A model generated the notes under the pieces. It searched no databases and was not told where the DNA came from. It saw nothing but the letters and a program-made list of their open reading frames with translations. A stretch of DNA of 64,000 nt from Cyanodermella asteris (lineage: Eukaryota > Ascomycota > Lecanoromycetes > Ostropales > Stictidaceae). Below, in pieces: positions 2,431 through 30,158 of this stretch. The first letter of the stretch is position 1. Each line of letters begins with the position of its first letter. Position numbers and translations under genes: made by a program. The stretch is taken from assembly GCA_900618795.1 (NCBI GenBank), contig UYJD01000005.1, positions 1,430,430 through 1,494,429 of the forward strand, written 5' to 3'.

Positions 2431-3717
2431 TCAAACAGCAGGCCCCCTACCAACCCACAGCCTAAATGATCTGAACGGACCACGCCTAGAATCCACATTC
2501 CGATACTGAAACCCGGGTCCCAGCTCCAGTTGGTTGGTACAGAAATACAACCACCCATCCAGTATCGCCGCACTATCCGCGTGCTGAATCTCCGCACTCC
2601 GGACAAGAGTCTTGACGACCAGGTCATCGCTCTTCACCAATCCGCTCCCACCAGCTGGAGTCCCATTGACTTCTTCCGTGACCTCGCTCTGATGAGTGTC
2701 GACGTAGTAAATTGCATTCTGCTCCGACGCGGTGATGTACACCCGCCCGCGATCATCGGCCGTGAAGCCCGCCTGTTCGGATCCCAGTTGACCGGGGAAC
2801 ACCACCGCATCGCGGACTTGCTGCTCGGATAGGGAGAAATTTGCGAGACCGGACTGCGGGATGTAGTAGTATCGTCGGGAAGCCAGGACGCCCCAGTAGA
2901 CGTTCCCGGACTGCAAAGCAATGCCGTCCGCGCCCGTCGCGGTCGCCTTCTTGCTCGTCCCGTTCCAGCTGTAGATCGGCTGTCCGTTGAAGCTCCCCAC
3001 GTAGCCCGGATCCGCAACCGTGTACGAGGTGTTGAAGAGACGCTTCACGGCCTGTCCGGTGCACAGATCCAGCGCGACCAGGCTGGCGGCTTTGCTGGCG
3101 TCGGTCATGAACGCGAATCCCGCCGTGCCGAGCGTGTTATTGATTCTCAAATCATTCAGATTGGTGCCATTTGCCAGAACCGCATCCGGCATCGGGTACG
3201 TCTTCATCAGCATTCTGTCAGTGACGTTGAAGGACATGATCTTTGCGCCCCCGGGTGTTGCGCTCGTCGATCCTGGTTTTACGCCGGAGTCGACGACCCA
3301 CATTGCGCCTTGCGAGTCTAGGACCACGTTCTGAACGTTGATGAAGCATGTTGAGGGATCTTGGCCCGTGGTGCAGTTTTGGATCTGGGGAGACGGCCAG
3401 GGCTCTTCGGATTCAAAATCCGTGGCTATGACCACGTTGCTGGGGGTTTGACCCGAGTTTCGTGGGTACGTCAGGTAAATGTTATGGCCACGGTCCACGG
3501 CCAGGCCGGTAGGTGGGGAGCTGCTTGAATGGATGGTTTCAAGTTTGGGCCCAATAATGGGAAAGTCTTGCGGGCAGACACCCAAAGTTCCGTTGGAGGT
3601 CCCATTCTGTACGGTTGGACATGTTGCGAAAAGGCCGTGCGATAGTACGGCAGGAAGCTGAGTGAGCAGTGCGACGCCCGTGGTCAAGAGCGGAGGTCCG
3701 AACATGATGGGATGCAA
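2431..3717 (-). CDS. Secreted Yellow/major-royal-jelly-like protein
   Basis: Intronless 428-residue protein of the MRJP/Yellow family, a beta-propeller fold found in many secreted fungal proteins whose reactions are mostly unknown. It starts with ATG at 3717 and has an N-terminal hydrophobic signal-like stretch (about residues 8-26, ending near AVLSHG). Family features in order: a propeller-entry segment (PPTGLAVD, about 67-75), blades containing MWVVDSG (about 138-145), the DLRINNT region (about 190), a Y-rich blade (about 285) and the closing segment WLYFCTNQL (about 388). Many N-x-S/T sites fit secretion. The end GRGPAV is compatible with a complete C-terminus. It is divergent from the MTFP1 homologue, with 557 bases between the two starts. 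Family assignment is confident; substrate is unknown. Confidence 0.85.
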   Translation of the reverse strand: MHPIMFGPPLLTTGVALLTQLPAVLSHGLFATCPTVQNGTSNGTLGVCPQDFPIIGPKLETIHSSSSPPTGLAVDRGHNIYLTYPRNSGQTPSNVVIATDFESEEPWPSPQIQNCTTGQDPSTCFINVQNVVLDSQGAMWVVDSGVKPGSTSATPGGAKIMSFNVTDRMLMKTYPMPDAVLANGTNLNDLRINNTLGTAGFAFMTDASKAASLVALDLCTGQAVKRLFNTSYTVADPGYVGSFNGQPIYSWNGTSKKATATGADGIALQSGNVYWGVLASRRYYYIPQSGLANFSLSEQQVRDAVVFPGQLGSEQAGFTADDRGRVYITASEQNAIYYVDTHQSEVTEEVNGTPAGGSGLVKSDDLVVKTLVRSAEIQHADSAAILDGWLYFCTNQLELGPGFQYRNVDSRRGPFRSFRLWVGRGPAV

Positions 3718-4274
3718 ATGGAGCTACAGTGACATACAGTGGAAGAATCGGCCAGCCTCAGATATGGTATATGGCACGAGAGAGATCATGGCGAAGAACA
3801 AAAGAGAATACAAAAGTATAGGCGTCTGCAGACGTCAGGAATGAAGTCATCGTGTAAGTGCTACTAGTAAGGGTGCCGTGAGGAGAAGAGCACGGCAAAA
3901 TAGGCTTGACATTCGATTATCGTTTCGTGTGGCATTCGAGCCATTCGGGTATGGGATTTCATCTCAGTCTGTGAGACGAAGAAGTACCTGCAGCTGTCTA
4001 AGTTGGTTAAGGAAAGGAGGTCAACATTTTGGCCTTCATGCAGGCCGTTGAAGGATGCCGCGTCCGCTCCTGGAGGCTCGACCATGTGACGTCGTGAGGA
4101 ACCGGGGCGTCTCATCTTCGGACCTCCACAACTAAGCTCCAAGCTTCGACCCCAGCTTCTCTTTTGCTGGACAAACGCAACCGGTTTCTGCACATTCAGC
4201 TCTGACCCTCATCGGCGTATCTTCTCGGCTACGGCATTGCCACATTTCAATTGTGGACGTCCTCGGTCAACAGG
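3718..4274. promoter_or_regulatory. Divergent promoter region (MRJP-like / MTFP1-like)
   Basis: 557 bases between two outward-facing starts. A TATA-like stretch (tatggtatat) lies at about 3764-3773, roughly 50 bases upstream of the MRJP-like start, and is a candidate core promoter for that gene. A 109-codon minus-strand open frame inside (3864-4193) has no family features and is not called. Confidence 0.4.
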
Positions 4275-15529: not shown

Positions 15530-17029
15530 TCAACATCTAAACATCTTTGCAGTGCTCACGTTTACCCTGCTCCACCACTGTCGCTTCCAGATTGACGCAA
15601 CAAACATGCCCGGCCAGTAAACGTGATAAAGCCACCACCAAGGCAAAGGATCCCAAACTTCGTATGTCCCGTCTTTCCAGAAGAGCAGGTGCTCGATGAA
15701 AATCTTGAATCCAGCGATAAGTTTCATCGGTCTCTGTCGCAATAAGAACAAGCGGAGCAATGGCAATAGTACCAGTTCAACGAGATCGTGCCCGATCCAG
15801 TAATAACGTGCAGGATCCTTGGGTGTAAGCACGTTAGCTTTGTGCGGGTGACTGGTGCCATTGGGCTGAGACGGGACAGCCGCTTGCAGATAGGCGTTGG
15901 ACATTGGCTTCCCGAGACCGTTGAACAGTACCACGGCCGTGTGGGCCCGAGGATTGCATTCGATTGGAAACAGCAACTGCTCAATGCCTTTTTCCGTACT
16001 CCTCTGATGCACGAGAAAATCAAAACTCAAATGGCCGCTCCAGTCAGCCCCGCTGCGTGCTACGAACTCGGTCGTGAACTTGAGCATCGACTCGTTTAAC
16101 GGTGAGTTCGATGGCAGAGCCACGTAGTGCATGAGCAGTTCGGAGCTCTCGCAGGCTGTGAAGGCGACGACTTCGCCCTTGACCACCAAGGCGTGAGTGC
16201 AGTACTCGCTACCTTTGACAAATTCCTGGAGCACCCACGGCTTTGTGTTTGAGATGGGGATCTTGCTGAGATGCGAATACGTCTGCGATAAAGTTCGTCG
16301 AGGAAGAAGGGTCATGTCGCCACGGGCCGAGTCGTCGACGCCGACCGACTTCATGATATACGTCTTCCGCCGCTTCGGGGCCGTGTCCAGGATCTTGTGT
16401 ACCATTGCCCGGGATGTCACGTCGTAGGTCTCCGGTACAGGCAGACCAAGCGATCGAGTGTGCGCAATGAAGCTGCTTTTCTCGTGAAGCATGCCAGTGG
16501 TTCCGGCGTCATATTGCACAGCGACGCAGCTCGTACGGCGCTCCACGACTTCTTTAGCCTGTCCGTCTTCGACTGCTGAGGCCACGCCGCTGCAGCTGAC
16601 CCATAGATCGACGCGCTCGACGGCTACGATTCCAAGCAATTCTTGAGTGTAGAAAGATGCACCATTGACCGGGTCCGGAACCGGAAGACTGTAGAATCTT
16701 TTCAGAGCTCGGGAGAATCGCCCACAAACCGGGACACCGTATGGCTCAAAATCGGCGCCGATGACCGTATGGCCAGCTTCATGAAAGAGTCGAGCGATTG
16801 CAAGCCCTTTTGACATGCCAACTCCAGTGACCAAGACTGTCTTGGGCTGGAACGAAGAATTCTGACGCGCGAGTCGTCGGCGAATGTAGTGGCGGGGAAA
16901 CGTCAGGAGCTGGAGGACGTATGTGCACAGCACAGCATAGCTGCTCAGTGGGAGCAAGGTGATGCTGAGCACTATGAGAGCGGCATTCTGGAGGAAATGG
17001 GCAGCAGCCGGAGAGCTTGACGTGAGCAT
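15530..17029 (-). CDS. MysC-like ATP-grasp ligase (mycosporine synthase)
   Basis: Intronless, 499 residues. An N-terminal hydrophobic segment (about 12-42) predicts membrane anchoring. A Rossmann-like preATP-grasp domain follows (KTVLVTGVGMSKGLAIAR, 63-80; GRFSRALKRFYSLPVPD, 103-119). The ATP-grasp domain has Lys227 in YIMKSVGVD, Glu269 in PWVLQEF, EYCTHA (275-280), Asp337 in LSFDF and the metal-binding IECNPRAH (356-363). The C-terminal part (YYWIGHDLVEL, DPLPWWWLYHVYW) also resembles cyanobacterial MysC, which activates 4-deoxygadusol with ATP and adds glycine to form mycosporine-glycine. Fungal mycosporines usually carry other amino compounds, so the acceptor here is open. It lies tail to head with the O-methyltransferase (489 bases), and the cyclase is 3.1 kb away. 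Family and pathway are confident; substrate is not. Confidence 0.88.
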   Translation of the reverse strand: MLTSSSPAAAHFLQNAALIVLSITLLPLSSYAVLCTYVLQLLTFPRHYIRRRLARQNSSFQPKTVLVTGVGMSKGLAIARLFHEAGHTVIGADFEPYGVPVCGRFSRALKRFYSLPVPDPVNGASFYTQELLGIVAVERVDLWVSCSGVASAVEDGQAKEVVERRTSCVAVQYDAGTTGMLHEKSSFIAHTRSLGLPVPETYDVTSRAMVHKILDTAPKRRKTYIMKSVGVDDSARGDMTLLPRRTLSQTYSHLSKIPISNTKPWVLQEFVKGSEYCTHALVVKGEVVAFTACESSELLMHYVALPSNSPLNESMLKFTTEFVARSGADWSGHLSFDFLVHQRSTEKGIEQLLFPIECNPRAHTAVVLFNGLGKPMSNAYLQAAVPSQPNGTSHPHKANVLTPKDPARYYWIGHDLVELVLLPLLRLFLLRQRPMKLIAGFKIFIEHLLFWKDGTYEVWDPLPWWWLYHVYWPGMFVASIWKRQWWSRVNVSTAKMFRC

Positions 17030-17518
17030 CCTGTCCTTGGCTTGCGAGCGTCAATTCGGAGTGTGGCGCTTGTTCTATTGACTCGCCATGAGGATGGAGG
17101 GGATTGCGACAGAGCACGATCAGATGTAGTCAATAGAAACGCGATTCGAAAAATGCGCTGGGACTTTCCAAGCTTCAGATGGACTTGTACGACATAACGC
17201 CAGTGCAAGCAAGATAGCCGATGTGGCAGATGGCGAGGTCGACGAATGAGGCTGGGTGGAGAGAAGGGAGTGAAAGCCGCAGTGAGCTTCTCGGCGACGT
17301 CACTTGCGCACGGACCGCTTGCCTTGTTGAGCACGAAAGGTGTCAGAGGACGTGCGCTTGTAGCTCTACGTTTCTTACGAGATTGAGGCCAAGTCATGAG
17401 ATGTAAGCACAAGTGAAGAATGGCTTCGACAATCCGGCTGACCAGCAGTGTGTTCCACTCGAAAACATTTCCCAGCGATGTGCACAAGTGGCCGGCGAGC
17501 ACGCGCTTCAAGCCCCCA
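17030..17518. promoter_or_regulatory. Promoter region of the ATP-grasp gene
   Basis: 489 bases between the O-methyltransferase stop and the ATP-grasp start, both on the minus strand. The spacing is large enough for an independent promoter. Minus-strand open frames here continue through both genes' edges in the wrong frame and are not coding. No sharp motif stands out. Confidence 0.35.
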
Positions 17519-18503
17519 TCAACCCTCTACAGCAACACATCGTGTTACTTCTACCCCATCCTGTTAATGAGATGTTAGTGCTGTTTACTTCCACCATGCT
17601 TCGCGCGCGAATAGCTTCGTTGGCTTACCGGTTCTCCTGTAGGCTCGAAGCTTTTTATGAGCTGCGATTCGTAAACGATGTTTGGGTTCCCTCTTGCTTC
17701 TTCTAGCTTTTCCTCGCCTCGTCGCTTCTGGTACTGGTTCTTCGTCCTATCCACGAAGCCCTCACGACCGTCGTTCTGCTTATCTCCCCTCGTGAGACTC
17801 TCTCTCTTCTGATCTGGCGTGCTTCGGACGTATTTGAGGTATGGAGGGTTGCCTGGGGAGATGACATTGTCCGCCGCCAGGACAGTGCCCTTGTGTATGA
17901 GCCCGAGTTCCTCGCAAAGCTTCAGGTCTGTTGTATAGGCAGGCTTGTAGTGGTCGAGAAACAACATATCGATTTGAGACAGTCGACCCTGGTCGTGGAG
18001 CGTTTTGATCGACTCGGCGCTGCTTCCAACGATGACTTTCGCGAAGCTGCCGAGTCCAGCAAGCTCCAGAAGCGACACTGTCACGGCTGCGAACGTCGGG
18101 TCCCGTTCAAGACAGAAGTAGTGCTGACCACCAGCTTTCCGTGCGGCGTTGGCGAAGAGAATTGCTGAGTAGCCGACATAGCTCCCCAGCTCAACCATGA
18201 GCTTGGGTTTTGTCTGTTCAATCAATTGAACCACTATGCGCCCCTTCTCAGTCCCGACATTCATCAGATACTTCTGCTTGCGTCCGAAATCGTCTATGGC
18301 CTGAAGGACTTTCTCGGGCTCGCCTCGCACGCTGTCGGAATGGCTGTAGACATAATGAAGCAATGCCACTTCTCTGCCGTCGTCAAACTGTTGGGCTGAT
18401 TAGCCAACGACGCTTGCGGCCAGAACTTTGTACATACAAAGCTGGTATTTTCTTCTTTCTGCTGGTATGCTTCGGTCTGATTGAAAGAATTGTCTGAAGC
18501 CAT
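17519..18503 (-). CDS. Catechol-type O-methyltransferase of the mycosporine cluster
   Basis: Three exons: 18438-18503, 17629-18387 and 17519-17560, with introns of 50 and 68 bases, giving 288 residues. The first join gives SFFDDGREVALLHYVYSHSD and the last gives FEPTGEPDGVEVTRC; both match fungal COMT-family proteins. SAM-binding motif VELGSYVGYSA (about 87-97) and acidic ERD (116-118) are present. The metal and catalytic set is complete: Asp167 and Lys170 in FLDHYKPAY, Asp195 and Asn196 in LAADNV. The expected reaction is SAM-dependent, Mg-dependent methylation of demethyl-4-deoxygadusol to 4-deoxygadusol; this is inferred from the neighbours, since the family also methylates catechols. A charged stretch of about 35 residues before NPNIVYES looks like a lineage-specific insertion. 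It is divergent from the cyclase gene. Confidence 0.87.
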
Positions 18504-20149
18504 GTTCGCGTCGATGCTATCAAGATCCAAGCGCCGTCGCTGTGTTCAAAGCAGGCTGACTTCAATTGCGGAGGCAACCGATCCCGACGCGTCAAGCTAG
18601 GTATTGGAGGATGTGTTCATGGCCGGTTCATCCACAGGAGCAGAAGCACCCTTTCTCGGAGCCGCCTCGTTCCTGTCATGTGTAAGAGTTATTTTCGCTG
18701 CGACCTTCGGAGTAGAGAGGCTCCCGCATTGGGCTCGTACATGTGCCCCGCAATGAGGCCCTTGTAAATACTCATATCCGAGTGTGATTGGCGGGCCAAG
18801 CTGGATCCCTGTAATGGTGAGCCCATGACTTTTGATGGTGTAGCGCGTGCGAGGCCTGGATTGTATGGTCCACCCAAAAGTTCAGCCCTGAACTCAACCG
18901 CCAGGGCGGCAGGGATCTTGGCTCAAGCCTGTTTACAGACGCGTCCTTACCCTATCGGGCTAGCTATCCTCTCGACTGCATCCGCGTCCTTGGGTGTGTG
19001 GTGCTTCCTTGACTTCATGACATTCTCTCTTGACAAGGGTGCTCACTGTGGCGCTGAGAATGTGCCCAGCACGCCGTAGTGGCCTGCGTTATAATTCGCA
19101 AGTGACTCGGAAGCTGAAAGCGCTGTCTCTGCCGATAGTTCCTGGACTCTTGACTGCGAGACGACATTTGTGGGCTGCGACAGGTGTCTCACAGAGGCAA
19201 GCAAAGGCTAGCGGCGAAAACCTATTATTTACGGTCCTCGCATTCTGTCCAGATGCAGTTGCTGTCTGCGAACCATTCGCTTGACGCGAAGGAATTAGCT
19301 GGACCAGGCACTGCACGTCATCCGAAGGAATGAACAGCAGTCAAGACAGAAGCCGAACTAGGTTGGTAAAAACTCATATCCCACAGCCATTGAGGTATGC
19401 GCTGATACCACTTCGGACCGCGCCCCGCCAATTTTATCAGAGCATTGCGCGGCGTGGTCAAGATCTAAGCCGTCAAGATCGGATCTTGCCAGACTGGTGG
19501 GAAATGTGTCGACAGTCTTACGAAACTTAGCACCCTGCATCTCTTGTGCCAACTGCCAACCCATACTGTTATTGGATGAAGCAGTGTGGAATCGCGGACC
19601 GGGGTAACGACTCGATTCCCGCCGTCGACAGCCCCACATGCTGAGTGCCACTCCTCCAAACAACAGGGGTTCTATACTTTTCTCTGCTTCTCAACTTCCC
19701 CCCTCGGCTTGTGGTTTCGTCAGAGATATTGCTCTGGATTTCCAGCCAAAGCCAGCGATTCAAAGCACGTCATCTGTGACTATGCAGGTTCCACCATTTC
19801 GAGCCGGATCGGCTGTTCAGGTCCGCCTGAACAGAAACAATGACCGTTGCATTTTCACCGTCTAAGCAGGTCGAACCGGTTAGCCATGTTGCCACAGCTC
19901 TCGTGCTCGGGGTACATACACGCCATGCCTGCATTATCACGTTCGTCGGCTCCGGTGGGGCATGAGCTTGAGTCGTCTGCGTACTCCAGCGGATCTGCCG
20001 TTTATTATTTAACCGAAAATCTCCAAAGAACCGTATAAGACGCGTCTGTTCCACTGTCCCTCACCCGACTATCGCTCTCCCTCCTCCCGAAACTTCCCCG
20101 TCTGTTCCGCGTCAACTGAACGTCGTTTCCCTTCCTCGCAACTTCCACG
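18504..20149. promoter_or_regulatory. 1.65 kb divergent control region of the mycosporine cluster
   Basis: The cyclase and the O-methyltransferase start outward from this 1646-base block. It contains no credible coding frame. The part nearest the cyclase has an AT-rich stretch (tttattatttaa, about 19998-20009), about 140 bases before its start and a candidate core promoter. It is followed by a pyrimidine-rich leader (20050-20140). An AGGGG stress-type pentamer occurs near 19662. Such a long shared region is unusual beside the 130-650 base gaps of the housekeeping genes to the left and suggests regulated co-expression, which is an inference. Confidence 0.5.
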
Positions 20150-21784
20150 ATGTCTGATCTCAAGGCAACAGTGCAGGAGACCAGCAATGGCTTCCACGTC
20201 GAGGGCTGGGAGAAGATCGAATACGATTTCACCTTCCTGGACGGTGCTTTCAACCCGCAGAACAATCAATTGGCACAGGAGTACCGCAAGTGGGGCCGAG
20301 TACTTGCCGTGATGGATTTCAATGTCTACAACCTCTACGGCAAGCAGATGGAGAACTACTTTAGCCACCACAACCTGGAGCTCAAGGTCCACAAGACGAA
20401 GATTGGCGAGAAGGCGAAGACAATTCCGACCTTCCTGAGCATTGCTGATTCAATGACCGAATTCGGGATCTACCGCAAAGTATCACCACCATCTCGAGCT
20501 GTTGCAAGCGGTGGCTAATCAATTCCCAGGAACCCGTTCTGGTCGTCGGCGGAGGCCTGGTTACCGATGTTGCCGGGTAAAAATCACCAAGATTGCCATA
20601 AGTCCAAGGGCCTCTACCCACCCTTGACATGCAAAGGCTTTTGTCTTGACGAATCCACTGCTAACATGCTTGTCTCTGCAGATTTGCTTGTGCCGCGTAC
20701 CGTCGCAACACAAACTTTATTCGTATTCCCACGACTGTCATCGGGCTTATCGATGCTTCGGTGTCGATTAAGGTCGCAGTCAACTACGGCAACTACAAGA
20801 ACCGTCTCGGCGCCTACCACGCGCCCCAGCATACTTTCCTCGACTTCGGCTTTCTGAGGTCGCTGCCCAAGGCACAAATTCGGAATGGGTTTGCGGAATT
20901 GATCAAGATCAGCTCCTGCGCTCACAAGCCGACGTTTGATCTGTTGGACAAGTATTGCGAGGAACTTATCAACACCGCGTTCGGCCGTGCAGACGGCGCA
21001 TCCGACGAAGTGCGCAAGGCGGCCGACCAGATCAACAGAGATGGTATCCATGAGATGTTGAAGCTCGAGACTCCCAATCTGCACGAGATCGGGCTCGACA
21101 GAGTCATCGCATACGGACACACGTGTGTTGCCAAGTGCCTCACATTTGAGACCAACGCTAACACTGCCCAGATGGTCACCGATGCACGAGCTCGTGCCAG
21201 AAACTCCGTTGCGACACGGACATGCCATCTCCATCGACATGGCATACTCCGCGACACTCGCAAACACACGCAAGATGATCTCGGATGCCGAATATCATCG
21301 TCTCCTGACGCTGTTCTCGCGCGCTGGTCTCTCAATCGATCACCCCCAGTTCGACGAGGACATCCTCGACAAGGGAACAAAGGCTATCCTCAAGACCCGT
21401 GATGGTAAGCTGCGCCTCGCAGTGCCCAACCCCATTGGCAAGTGCGTCTTCCTCAACGACGTTCCGTACGAAGAGTTGGTCGGCGCACTCCGCCAGCACA
21501 AGCAGGTCATGAAGTCGTATCCTCGTAATGGCGCTGGCGTTGAGGCATACGTTGACGCGAGTGACACTGGTTACACTGAGGGGAACGAGGACGCCAACGC
21601 AGAGCTGGCGCAGGCAGCCAAGGATGCCGGTAGCCTTAATGGCAGTATGAACGGCGCTCACATCAATGGTGGCATTGAGATGAACGGCGATGCAAATGCT
21701 GAGAAGGTTAAGGCCAAGCTGGCGAACGGAACGAACGGACTGACCAACGGTGTCAATGGTTTCACGAATGGTGGAAAGGCTTAA
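20150..21784 (+). CDS. Demethyl-4-deoxygadusol synthase-type sugar-phosphate cyclase
   Basis: Four exons: 20150-20479, 20530-20576, 20682-21122 and 21172-21784, giving 476 residues. The protein belongs to the dehydroquinate-synthase superfamily. The NAD-binding [13 protein letters not shown] lies at about 115-127, followed by [20 protein letters not shown] (about 141-160). Zinc ligands are Glu198 in AELIKIS, His272 in YGHTWSP and His288 in RHGH. The motifs [10 protein letters not shown] and GHTWSPMHEL point to the DDGS/EEVS branch rather than true AroB. DDGS converts sedoheptulose 7-phosphate into demethyl-4-deoxygadusol, the core of mycosporines; EEVS gives 2-epi-5-epi-valiolone instead. The adjacent methyltransferase and MysC-like ligase favour DDGS. 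The C-terminal 45 or so residues are an Asn-Gly-rich tail ([14 protein letters not shown]) of unknown use. All exon joins keep frame. Confidence 0.9.
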
Positions 21785-25867: not shown

Positions 25868-26751
25868 TCAAGCCATGGCAAACATGGCGCCGACCAGTCC
25901 TGCCATCGCTGCGCCACTGTTGAGGTGTGTCCTATCCGCCGCACCGGTAAATTTGGGGAGGTTGCTGGTCTGCGCCGCTACTGTCTGTCGGATCAAGGTC
26001 TGTGTAGGAGCGTTGCTTGTCGAGGCGAGAGTTGCGCCGGGCACCAATGTTCCGACCTGTTGGTCAAAGCTGCCGATCACGTTGCCTGCTGGCTGGTATT
26101 CGCAGACCACGTACCAGCCGTGCGTGGGGCCACAGAAAGCACGACCGCAGCCGACCTGCGCAGTGTCTTTCCAGACAAGCTGTGTGAAGTGACCCGTCGC
26201 CTCAGAGAAACCTTGCGCGTTGAAGTTGTAGAGGAATCGCTCGTCGCCCCACGCTTGGCAAGTATCGGTGGTTGAGACGTAACCCTCTGCGATGTTCTCG
26301 CCATATGGACCACCCTGTAAATTCTGTCAGCGACCGATCTAGATCTCAAGACAGGGTGCCGATGCGAAATTTGCGATCAGATCTGGCACAGCAACTTGGA
26401 ACAACTCTGCCAATCGGCGTGCGTCTGAGACACTGTTTCTCGACACAAACCTGATCCGCGCGCCAAGGGCTGCAAGCGATCTCAGACAACCGGGGCCCAG
26501 CTTACCGTATGCTCGAACACGCAGCCTGAAGCTGCATTCTGCGCGTAGTTCGCGAGTGTGTCGTTCCAGGTGACGCTCTTCGCGCCGTACATGACACGAT
26601 ATGTGTTGGTCGAGTTGAGCATCTCCGTCTTGAATGTGTTGTCCACCTTGTAGGTCGGGTTGTTGCCGTCGCCAGCGTTCTGGGCAGAAGCAATCACTGC
26701 CAGGCCGAGCACGGCGGAGAGGGCCTTGCGGATGGAGAATGCTGGGGCCAT
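25868..26751 (-). CDS. Secreted CAP-superfamily (PR-1/SCP-like) protein
   Basis: Two exons, 26506-26751 and 25868-26314, with a 191-base intron (donor GTAAGC, acceptor TTACAG), giving 230 residues. A signal peptide is clear (about 1-23, ending IASAQ). The CAP domain follows: FKTEMLNSTNTYR, then VTWNDTLANYAQNAASGC, then HT/GGPYGENIAEGY across the splice. GHFTQLVWKDTAQVGCG and WYVVCEYQPAGNVIG are the classic CAP signature blocks. The C-terminus ends in a small-residue site and a hydrophobic tail (LNSGAAMAGLVGAMFAMA), which suggests a GPI anchor. CAP proteins bind sterols or fatty acids (yeast Pry proteins) or act at host interfaces; which applies here is unknown. Confidence 0.88.
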
Positions 26752-28722
26752 TATGGAAGATTGAAGGATGAAGGCGATGTTTTGTTGGAGCTCTGCGGAC
26801 TTTTGTTTGGAGCTTTCAGCTCTGCAACTAAGCAGTCTGGGCAAACTTGTGGTGGAAAGGACAGTCGAGCACGAGCTGTTGACCGGCCGTCACGTAGATC
26901 CGCACTGTTCGAACGGAAACCCGTCGAAGACCTACAAGGTCAATTGGTCACACAGCGAGAGGCTAGCCAGAGGCATCAACAAGAAGGAGAAAACAGAAGG
27001 AACCGGAGCATATACATTGGGCACAGGCGATCGACACTGGCCGAGCTTGTCACCAATCTCCACGTCCCCAGATTTTGGCTGCATGAGCCCTCGGCGCATC
27101 GGTACAGAAGAGTTGGCCGGTCTGGCTCAAGCCACATGCCGTGACGGACGCGTAATCCAGCATAGCTCCCATTGGTGGAAGGCCAGCTCTGGTAGGGAAG
27201 CGCGTGCTAGTCGAGGCTCACCGTCAGCCGTGACGCATGTGTGGCTCCGTGGCTCGGCCTGGGGACGGCGCACAGAGCCTGGAGGAGCTTGTAGAGCTGG
27301 ACACAAGGGGGCGAGGATGCGAACTGGGATTGTTGGTGTTGCAAGGATTTAGCGCTATAGCAGCAATATGAGCATGGCTTCCACTTTGGGCGCGGTTGTT
27401 ATAAGCCACGTGTATGAGTGGTCGAGAGAGAAATGAGATCAGAAAAACGGCCCACCAGGAACGGGCCATTGATTGGAGCTGGGGAGAAGCCCGCGTCCAC
27501 GGCGGGAGCTAGAGCGAAACGGAGTGTAGCCGTGGCATTGGCTTTGCGCCAACATGGCCCGAGTCAGGCGGGGATTGGACGAGTGCGGAGAAAGGTAGCA
27601 GATGCTTTCGCCGGCACCGAGGATACAGCAGTGCTGGGCGCAATCTTGCAGCCAGGTTCCTGGCGATCGTCGTTTCGGGCGTTGGGATGCTTTTCACATG
27701 TGCTTTCTGACCCGCTCCGAGCCCTCTCTGCCAGCGGGAGAAGCTCGCCAGAGCTGTTGAACGGTCAAATGCCACGGCCTCGACCATGGTGGTCTTTTGC
27801 GCTTGAAATTGACGGAAGAAGTTTGTCTTCTGCGATCCGGCGCGAGAATAATTATAGATGCGAGACGCGAGCTTGTAAGCGATGTCTGATCAGCGCTGTG
27901 CAATTATGAGAGACCGCGCCGACCATCGCCAAATTGAAGCAGCATCGACGACCGCAGCGTTTGCATGCGGAAAGCAGCACGACGATGGTGTTGTCGTGTT
28001 GTCGTGTTGTTGATCTGCAGCACATGCATCGAAGTGCTGTTCCTTGTGGATCCTCTTCGGCGGATCGTCCTTATGATGTGATCAAATGAAGAGAGCTGTG
28101 ACTGCGATCGTTCGATCTGCCGATCGAATACATCTTTTGCAATTGTTGTTTGAACGTGGTCGAGTCGAGTGTTCTTGCATGCAGGTGCGTGTCTGTACAA
28201 AGGCCGATTTCCTCGGGCGCATTCGGCTTCGGACTCGTGAGGCCGGCAGAGACATACCGACAAGACGCTCAAGCCTTCGATAGACGAAGTCGGACATCGG
28301 CACGAGTGCACTGGACAGTTAGCCACAATGCTGGAAGCCGTTGATCCGGGAGCTAGACCGCTAAGCAAGACAAACGACCGCAGTCGGACAGCTGGTCTGG
28401 GACAAAGTACCATCTCAGGTCACTGCCGACACGTTCTGGCCACACCTGAGGACTCAGCATGGACCTGAACAATGGACGACAGCATGGTCAAAGAACGAAT
28501 AACGGATCGAGCCATGGCAAGCGATTACATACAGTATTGATGCTCGAAGAATTGATACTCTGTGCAAAAGAGAAGATTGGTCTCGGCAGAAAGTTTGTGG
28601 GCGCACGCCAAGCTCGGCTTCCATCTGAAACCCCGCCTGATGCAAGATCTGCTTCAAAGGTACTCAGAACTTTTGTGACAACTGCCGGAACTTCACGCTC
28701 TGCTTCGACAGGTCCTTGCTCA
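26752..28722. other. Non-coding gap, about 2 kb
   Basis: This block lies upstream of the CAP gene and downstream of the PRO2 stop. The first few hundred bases should contain the CAP promoter. Overlapping open frames up to 194 codons (26768-27352) occur on both strands but lack family features and consistent splice structure. A short TGTCGTGT-type simple repeat lies at about 27985-28010. No gene is supported. Confidence 0.4.
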
Positions 28723-30158
28723 CTATGCCAGCGGCAGCTTCTCATGCAGCCACTTCTTTCCTCCCTCCCCATACTCGCCCGCCGTCTGCCCGCTTCCGCT
28801 GATAAGATACTTGTAGATCATTAGCCCCTCCAGGCCCACCGGGCCTCGGGCATGAATCTTGTTGGTACTAACCCCAACCTCAGTTCCGAAGCCGAACCTC
28901 ATCCCATCTGCCATTCGCGTGCTGGCGTTCCAGAACGAACACGCGTTGTCAACCCCAGCCTGGAAACGCCGAGCCACCGCCTCGTTCTGCGTCAAGATGG
29001 CGTCTGTGTGCTTGCTGCCGTGGGCGTTGATATGCGCTATGGCGAGGTCCACGGCATCGCTTGCCCCGCCTGCGCTCTTGGGCACTGTCTTGATGGCGAT
29101 TATGGTATCCAGGAACTCGGTATCGTAGTCGCTTTCGACCGATTCCTGGAGGAGGACTGCTTCGTTCTTGGGGAGTATACTAGCCAAGGCGGTTCGTGAG
29201 GCGACATCGCACCGCAGAGAGACACCCTTTCCCAGCAACGCCGAGGCGACTGCAGGCAGGATCGTGGTAAGTGCAGCTTCGTCGACTAGGAGCGTCTCGA
29301 CTGCATTGCAAGCAGCCGTATACCCGAGCTTTGCGTCCAGCAGAATCCTTACCGCCATATCTTTCTCCGCATCTTCGCAGAGATAGATGCTGCAGAGACC
29401 GTCCGCATGACCGAGGACGGGAATTTTGGTGTTGTTCTTGATGTATGTTACGAGCTCGTTGGAGCCTCGGGGAATAACCAGATCAACATGCTTGTCCAGC
29501 TTCAACAGCTCGGGAATGACATCTCTGGTGGTTACAAGCTGAATTGCACCGTTTGGTACGGTGGTGTTCTCGAGTGCTTGTGAGATGATTTGGGAGATGG
29601 CAATAAATGATTCCGTCGATTCCTTTCCTCCCTTCAAGATGGCAGCATTGCCTGATTTGATGGCCAAACTGGCAATATTCGCAATGACCTCAGGTCTCGC
29701 CTCGAATATGATCAAAAGCACACCAATGGGACACGTGACCCTCTCAAGGTCCAGTCCTTGATCGAGGCGCGTACGAAGAGTAACCTTGCCGACTGGTGTG
29801 AAGTCAGTAATCCGATGCTAAGAAGCAAAAGCTATAGGAGGTTGTTAATTCACTCACCTGGGTCCTCCAACTCCCTGACGTCTAGTATGCCCTGAAGCAT
29901 GTCCTCATATTTTCCCGGCCTCGCCAAATCTAATCGTTTGAGGACTGCCTGGCTGAGCGTCCCTTCCTTCGTCGCCTGCGTAGCCGCAACCAAATCTCGT
30001 GCATTCGCCTCCAATATCTGACCTTTGGCAGCTTTCAAAGCTTCATGAATGGCTGTAAGTGCGTCGTTCCGATCTTTCGACGGTAGCACAGCCAGTGACC
30101 GGGCTGAAATACTCGCCGCTGTGCCGACCTGTAGCGGTGTTCCAGAGGAAAGTGACAT
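28723..30158 (-). CDS. PRO2: Gamma-glutamyl phosphate reductase
   Basis: Two exons, 29858-30158 and 28723-29792, with a 65-base intron, giving 456 residues. The join restores EDPVGKVTLRTRLDQGL. The enzyme reduces gamma-glutamyl phosphate with NADPH to glutamate semialdehyde, the second step of proline synthesis. Visible family blocks are IGVLLIIFEARPEVIAN, SGNAAILKGGKE, LVIPRGSNELV and VLGHADGLC. The active-site cysteine is Cys262 in YTAACNAVETLL, and ISGSGQTAGEYG lies near the C-terminus. Length matches fungal ProA-type enzymes. The kinase partner (PRO1) is not in the window. Confidence 0.95.

Follow-up and report, generated by a model that had tools for sequence, protein, structure and literature searches.

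Genomic organization of the locus

A window of 64,000 nucleotides from the Cyanodermella asteris genome (assembly of 28.5 Mb in 25 contigs) was analyzed. Three intact genes encoding a cyclase, an O-methyltransferase and an ATP-grasp ligase were found at positions 15530-21784 of the window. The sequence-only reading had described a three-gene system here, with the ligase and methyltransferase on one strand and the cyclase divergent, and spliced gene models confirmed this arrangement. The features of the locus, in order of position, are:

15530-17029, minus strand: predicted ATP-grasp ligase of MysC-like type; 499 aa in one exon; IECNPR motif at residues 356-361 and, towards the N-terminus, a long helix at residues 7-43
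17030-17518: spacer between methyltransferase and ligase; 489 bp
17519-18503, minus strand: predicted COMT-type O-methyltransferase; three exons (18503-18438, 18387-17629, 17560-17519); 288 aa
18504-20149: intergenic region separating cyclase and methyltransferase, which are divergent; 1646 bp; presumed to be the shared promoter region of these two genes
20150-21784, plus strand: predicted DDGS-type sugar phosphate cyclase; four exons (20150-20479, 20530-20576, 20682-21122, 21172-21784); 476 aa

Each spliced model yielded a single open protein (476, 288 and 499 aa), and all five introns were of the GT-AG type with lengths of 49-105 nt. Overlapping plus-strand ORFs near 20665 and 21062 proved to be exons belonging to the same spliced cyclase. 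The trio is compact and intron-poor, the ligase being intronless.

The trio forms an island among household genes. Its neighbors on the left are a leucyl-tRNA synthetase (at 129 bp from the end of the ligase), a septin and a Dip2/Utp12 protein, and on the right a GH20 hexosaminidase. No further pathway gene was recognized among the window ORFs scanned with Pfam. The Pfam scan covered 19 ORFs out of the 25 in the window that reach 230 aa, and none of the 19 is a glucosyltransferase; four of the remaining six belong to the trio, and split genes may be missed by such a scan. A genome search returned a single match to the ligase in the whole assembly. Searching the genome for the DHQ-synthase family returned two places: the cyclase itself and, on contig C15, a large ORF that we take for AROM and that grouped with AroB in the cyclase tree.

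Identity of the cyclase

The best solved relative of the cyclase was 5tpr (494 bits, 396 residues aligned, E 4e-147, 56% identity over the aligned 5tpr segment), which we take to be the Anabaena variabilis DDGS, the entry label reading 3-dehydroquinate synthase. The EEVS ValA (4p53) scored 232 bits and DHQS structures at most 111 bits. Residues E198, H272 and H288 are presumably the metal ligands, by positions known for the superfamily. In a 46-row tree the cyclase was placed within the DDGS clade at a support of 99/98, together with 12 bacterial DDGS (12 of the 60 loci described below), 5tpr and two further actinobacterial rows, while ValA, EEVS-like rows and 24 AroB rows fell outside. Furthermore, 21 sites were compared at which 98% or more of 61 DDGS agree and three EEVS-like sequences differ; these three constitute the EEVS side of the comparison. 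The cyclase was DDGS-like at 17 of these sites, EEVS-like at one and neither at three. It also matched 24 residues of a 30-residue Phaffia DDGS signature given in PMC10057719, compared with 23 for the A. variabilis fragment; PMC4426668 names a published fingerprint of 14 residues.

Generic family models name the cyclase a DHQ synthase. Identification as an EEVS or AroB was rejected on the tree and the discriminating sites. By sequence, the cyclase is assigned as a 2-desmethyl-4-deoxygadusol synthase (DDGS), so that the DDGS/EEVS type proposed earlier can be narrowed to the DDGS side.

Bacterial loci and identity of the ligase

Bacterial and archaeal genomes were scanned with two short N-terminal patterns from a two-row alignment, which gave 196 stretches and 60 DDGS loci. 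Judged by title, every locus is cyanobacterial or actinobacterial; the set represents the catch of these patterns and not all bacterial DDGS. A single-protein bacterial scan gave 20 stretches, none of which was confirmed. A ligase homologue was located close downstream of the DDGS in all 60 loci; a methyltransferase match (E 1e-4) was present in 54 and the MysB motif in 53. The four loci inspected downstream carried ORFs that we take to be MysD-like (three loci) and NRPS-like (one locus). One search of the fungal genome found no MysD homologue, although a very divergent fungal homologue could escape it; as a control, the same query found a match in three of three DDGS-bearing bacteria. The MysD result fits a mycosporine rather than an imine MAA, a product for which either MysD or a shinorine-type NRPS-like enzyme would be expected; the genome search covered MysD.

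The fungal trio resembles the cyanobacterial and actinobacterial mysA-mysB-mysC(-mysD) operons in that homologues of DDGS and MysC lie close together. It differs in orientation, the bacterial matches lying on one strand whereas the fungal cyclase is divergent, and in its methyltransferase, which is MysB in the bacterial operons and COMT-type here.

The ligase contained no Pfam domain at E 0.001, with the ATP-grasp model absent even at E 1, and a PDB sequence search returned no ATP-grasp relative; fold prediction was therefore used. An AlphaFold2 model built on the MysC alignment had a mean pLDDT of 83 and a pTM of 0.86. In a Foldseek search the leading matches were PylC and L-amino acid ligases (E about 1e-14, TM-score about 0.4 over the query), and TM-scores against solved ATP-grasp enzymes were about 0.4-0.5 over the query. 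Against NCBIfam PRK06849 the ligase scored 203 bits, below the curated cut-off of 406, indicating a distant relative and not an equivalog match; a protein encoded at a Nostoc DDGS locus scored 583 bits. Identity to the 21 bacterial MysC aligned with the ligase was 27-33%; the ligase shares their IECNPR motif and was identical at 62 of the 118 columns invariant among them. These results point to a distant MysC relative with a predicted ATP-grasp fold, in agreement with the MysC-like ligase named in the sequence-only reading and in place of a grouping with unrelated ATP-grasp enzymes. With a score of half the PRK06849 cut-off, 62 of 118 columns and TM-scores of about 0.4-0.5, the amine used by the ligase cannot be read off.

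Identity of the methyltransferase

At the methyltransferase (METHYLTRANSFERASE) the fungal trio departs from the bacterial one. The best solved relatives were S. pombe COMT1 (5zy5, 146 bits) and other catechol O-methyltransferase chains (127-145 bits), followed by an O-methyltransferase family 3 entry at 57 bits. Identity to S. pombe COMT1 and mammalian COMT was about 41-42% over the catalytic domain. D167, K170, D195, N196 and E262 occupy what we take to be the COMT metal sites and the catalytic Lys and Glu positions, which bears out the earlier claim that all metal and catalytic residues are present. The residues are the same as in eukaryotic COMTs as far as the aligned COMT fragments reach, these stopping short of the Glu.

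In a 23-row tree, into which 14 of the 53 MysB were taken, the methyltransferase, S. pombe COMT1 and another COMT encoded by this genome formed one group (99/97), and MysB stood apart (96/90). Twelve other bacterial matches were tried for this tree, of which five gave no local hit, three were MysB and four were used. Forcing the methyltransferase together with MysB was rejected (p-AU 0.00126; several long branches were flagged by the tool). When the 53 MysB were used as queries against five subjects, 34 had their best match in a methyltransferase gene on C14 of the fungal genome, 17 in a mammalian-type COMT, two in S. pombe COMT1 and none in the cluster enzyme. Similarly, one cyanobacterial MysB searched against the fungal genome found the C14 methyltransferase best (E 2e-10) and the cluster enzyme second (2.5e-5). 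The C14 gene is unlinked to the trio.

Identification of the cluster enzyme as MysB was rejected on the tree, the p-AU value, the absence of best matches among the 53 queries and the nearer C14 gene. On sequence grounds, the enzyme is classed as COMT-type and not as an orthologue of bacterial MysB. The cyclase and ligase have bacterial counterparts, whereas the middle enzyme comes from a different stock than its bacterial operon equivalent, a point that the sequence-only reading had missed. Both the fungal methyltransferase and the bacterial MysB group match the Methyltransf_3 family, and the same reaction is therefore plausible for both. A COMT-type enzyme was also detected in one of the 13 DDGS-bearing bacterial genomes searched, on a contig other than that of its mys genes, which speaks against a simple view of the COMT type as exclusively eukaryotic.

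Comparison with known fungal and vertebrate systems

The closest parallel is the MYC cluster of Phaffia rhodozyma, described earlier in PMC5103461 and, in PMC10057719, as comprising DDGS, OMT and ATPG with DDGS opposite in direction. Both clusters consist of three genes in which DDGS diverges from adjacent same-strand OMT and ATPG. Protein lengths are nearly equal (476, 288 and 499 aa here versus 477, 284 and 500 aa in Phaffia), and the intergenic regions are of similar length (1646 and 489 bp here versus 1568 bp for IGR1 and 621 bp for IGR2), by the figures in PMC10057719. In this different fungus the exons are fewer, at four, three and one versus the 14, seven and six described for Phaffia. 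The sequence comparison with Phaffia covers the 30-residue DDGS signature, and in C. asteris the likeness is known from the genes.

According to PMC10057719, loss of any one of the three Phaffia genes abolishes mycosporines, and the ligase mutant builds up 4-deoxygadusol. Saccharomyces cerevisiae carrying two of the Phaffia genes forms 4-deoxygadusol and with all three forms mycosporine-glutaminol, while the Phaffia glucoside requires a gene outside the cluster (PMC10057719). Co-conservation of the trio, named as a check in the sequence-only reading, was thus examined in the 60 bacterial loci and, from the literature, in Phaffia. Since the layout and sizes are Phaffia-like and the pathway is proven there, the C. 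asteris trio is a new instance of the known fungal system. We hold with high confidence that it is a mycosporine (MYC) biosynthetic cluster.

PMC10057719 cites Balskus and Walsh 2010 as pointing to fungal clusters. Among ascomycetes, mycosporine-like clusters are described for most genomes of the Hypoxylaceae in PMC8403587, where they are filed under NRPS-like genes by reference to Miyamoto 2014. No ascomycete paper dissecting this trio was found by title or start of abstract in the open-licence literature. The trio is also comparable to the vertebrate and algal EEVS/MT-Ox gadusol pathway, in which a sugar phosphate cyclase and a methyltransferase give a UV-absorbing enolone; the vertebrate pathway differs in using EEVS and a fused MT-Ox with no need for an ATP-grasp ligase (PMC4426668 and PMC7826186).

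Predicted pathway and alternative readings

The reactions proposed here are drawn by analogy from Phaffia and cyanobacteria, while the families, layout and residues come from sequence and the ligase fold from prediction. DDGS would close the ring of sedoheptulose 7-phosphate to give 2-desmethyl-4-deoxygadusol. The COMT-type enzyme, with SAM and a divalent metal, would then methylate one hydroxyl of the vicinal enediol to give 4-deoxygadusol; its presumptive substrate, desmethyl-4-deoxygadusol, is suggested by the position of the gene and by Phaffia. Both this substrate and the clustering with DDGS and a ligase would set the enzyme apart from other eukaryotic COMTs. Finally, the MysC-like ligase would activate 4-deoxygadusol with ATP and join it to an amine. 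This amine is most likely glutaminol, which would yield mycosporine-glutaminol, and the glucoside may then be formed by a glucosyltransferase encoded outside the cluster at another place in the genome. Mycosporine-glutaminol absorbs UV-B, near 310 nm. The mycosporine prediction of the sequence-only reading is thus supported as to the cluster and revised as to the product, which by analogy with Phaffia is likely mycosporine-glutaminol, subsequently converted to its glucoside, in place of mycosporine-glycine.

Three other readings were weighed. Were the cyclase an EEVS or AroB-like enzyme, the trio would make a cyclitol or gadusol-type compound and no mycosporine. The DHQ synthase name given by generic models, the rank of EEVS as next nearest solved relative and the single EEVS-like site lean that way, but the placement at 99/98 with ValA and 24 AroB rows outside, along with the 17 DDGS-like sites, makes it exceedingly improbable; to our knowledge, moreover, a MysC-type ligase has no role in EEVS pathways. 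The methyltransferase might instead be an ordinary catechol O-methyltransferase whose only tie to the other two genes is its place between them, with another enzyme methylating the intermediate, as its grouping with COMTs and the closer resemblance of the C14 enzyme to MysB would allow. The C14 gene is nevertheless unlinked, two Naganishia papers name a catechol O-methyltransferase among mycosporine genes, and the place and orientation of the gene match those of the OMT in Phaffia, where mycosporines disappear once that gene is lost (PMC10057719). We consider this bystander role very improbable.

A mycosporine with another amine (glycine, alanine, serinol or glutamicol) is a more serious though still unlikely alternative. 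According to PMC5666432, known mycosporines carry several different amino acids or amino alcohols; the ligase is about 30% identical to MysC, and its comparison with the Phaffia ligase covers length and gene position. Against this, a fungal ligase that has been tested, that of Phaffia, makes mycosporine-glutaminol (PMC10057719), and the glutaminol-glucoside is reported for Ascochyta and Hortaea. A DDGS-based route to mycosporine-glutaminol remains the preferred reading.

Because the methyltransferase groups with eukaryotic COMTs and its grouping with MysB was rejected, the pathway looks mosaic in this fungus. We favor, with moderate confidence, a pathway in which DDGS and a MysC-type ligase with bacterial counterparts were joined by a recruited eukaryotic COMT that replaces MysB non-orthologously. 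Such a swap would be chemically easy because the catechol-like enediol of desmethyl-4-deoxygadusol can be chelated through the COMT metal. No passage drawing an evolutionary conclusion on the fungal methyltransferase was found in the open-licence literature. The result offers a testable account of how the pathway may have arisen in fungi, with DDGS and ligase shared with bacteria and the methyltransferase supplied by the eukaryote. The cluster further predicts that C. asteris makes a UV-B sunscreen, and the intron-poor trio could be expressed in yeast.

Homologs of the cluster methyltransferase and the cyclase tail

Features considered here are as follows.
Contig C13, 962920-963528 (C. asteris genome): second COMT-like gene
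Window 21551-21781, plus strand: C-terminal tail of the cyclase (77 residues)
Window 28726-29817, minus strand: aldehyde dehydrogenase family ORF
Window 25868-26889, minus strand: split ORFs, putative secreted CAP/PR-1 type protein
Window 2434-3723, minus strand: ORF matching the major royal jelly protein family (MRJP in Pfam, 69 bits)

The second COMT-like gene shares 42-43% identity with the cluster methyltransferase. It reads DHVED where the cluster enzyme has DHYKP, and since Glu thereby replaces the presumed catalytic Lys, its product may be inactive as a COMT. Among the 13 DDGS-bearing bacterial genomes searched, only one match to the fungal enzyme was this strong, a Mycolicibacterium COMT-type methyltransferase (L068, genome G009; 37% identity, E 1e-27), which is encoded on a separate contig from the mys genes of that genome.

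The cyclase tail extends past the region alignable to bacterial DDGS and ends in an Asn-Gly-rich stretch. The Phaffia cyclase is almost equal in total length to the tailed C. asteris protein.

Neighboring ORFs

The aldehyde dehydrogenase family ORF, located 7 kb from the trio, resembles gamma-glutamyl phosphate reductase and is probably the proline gene. The split ORFs carry motifs that we take to suggest a secreted CAP/PR-1 type protein. The major royal jelly protein family ORF was observed here in a fungus.
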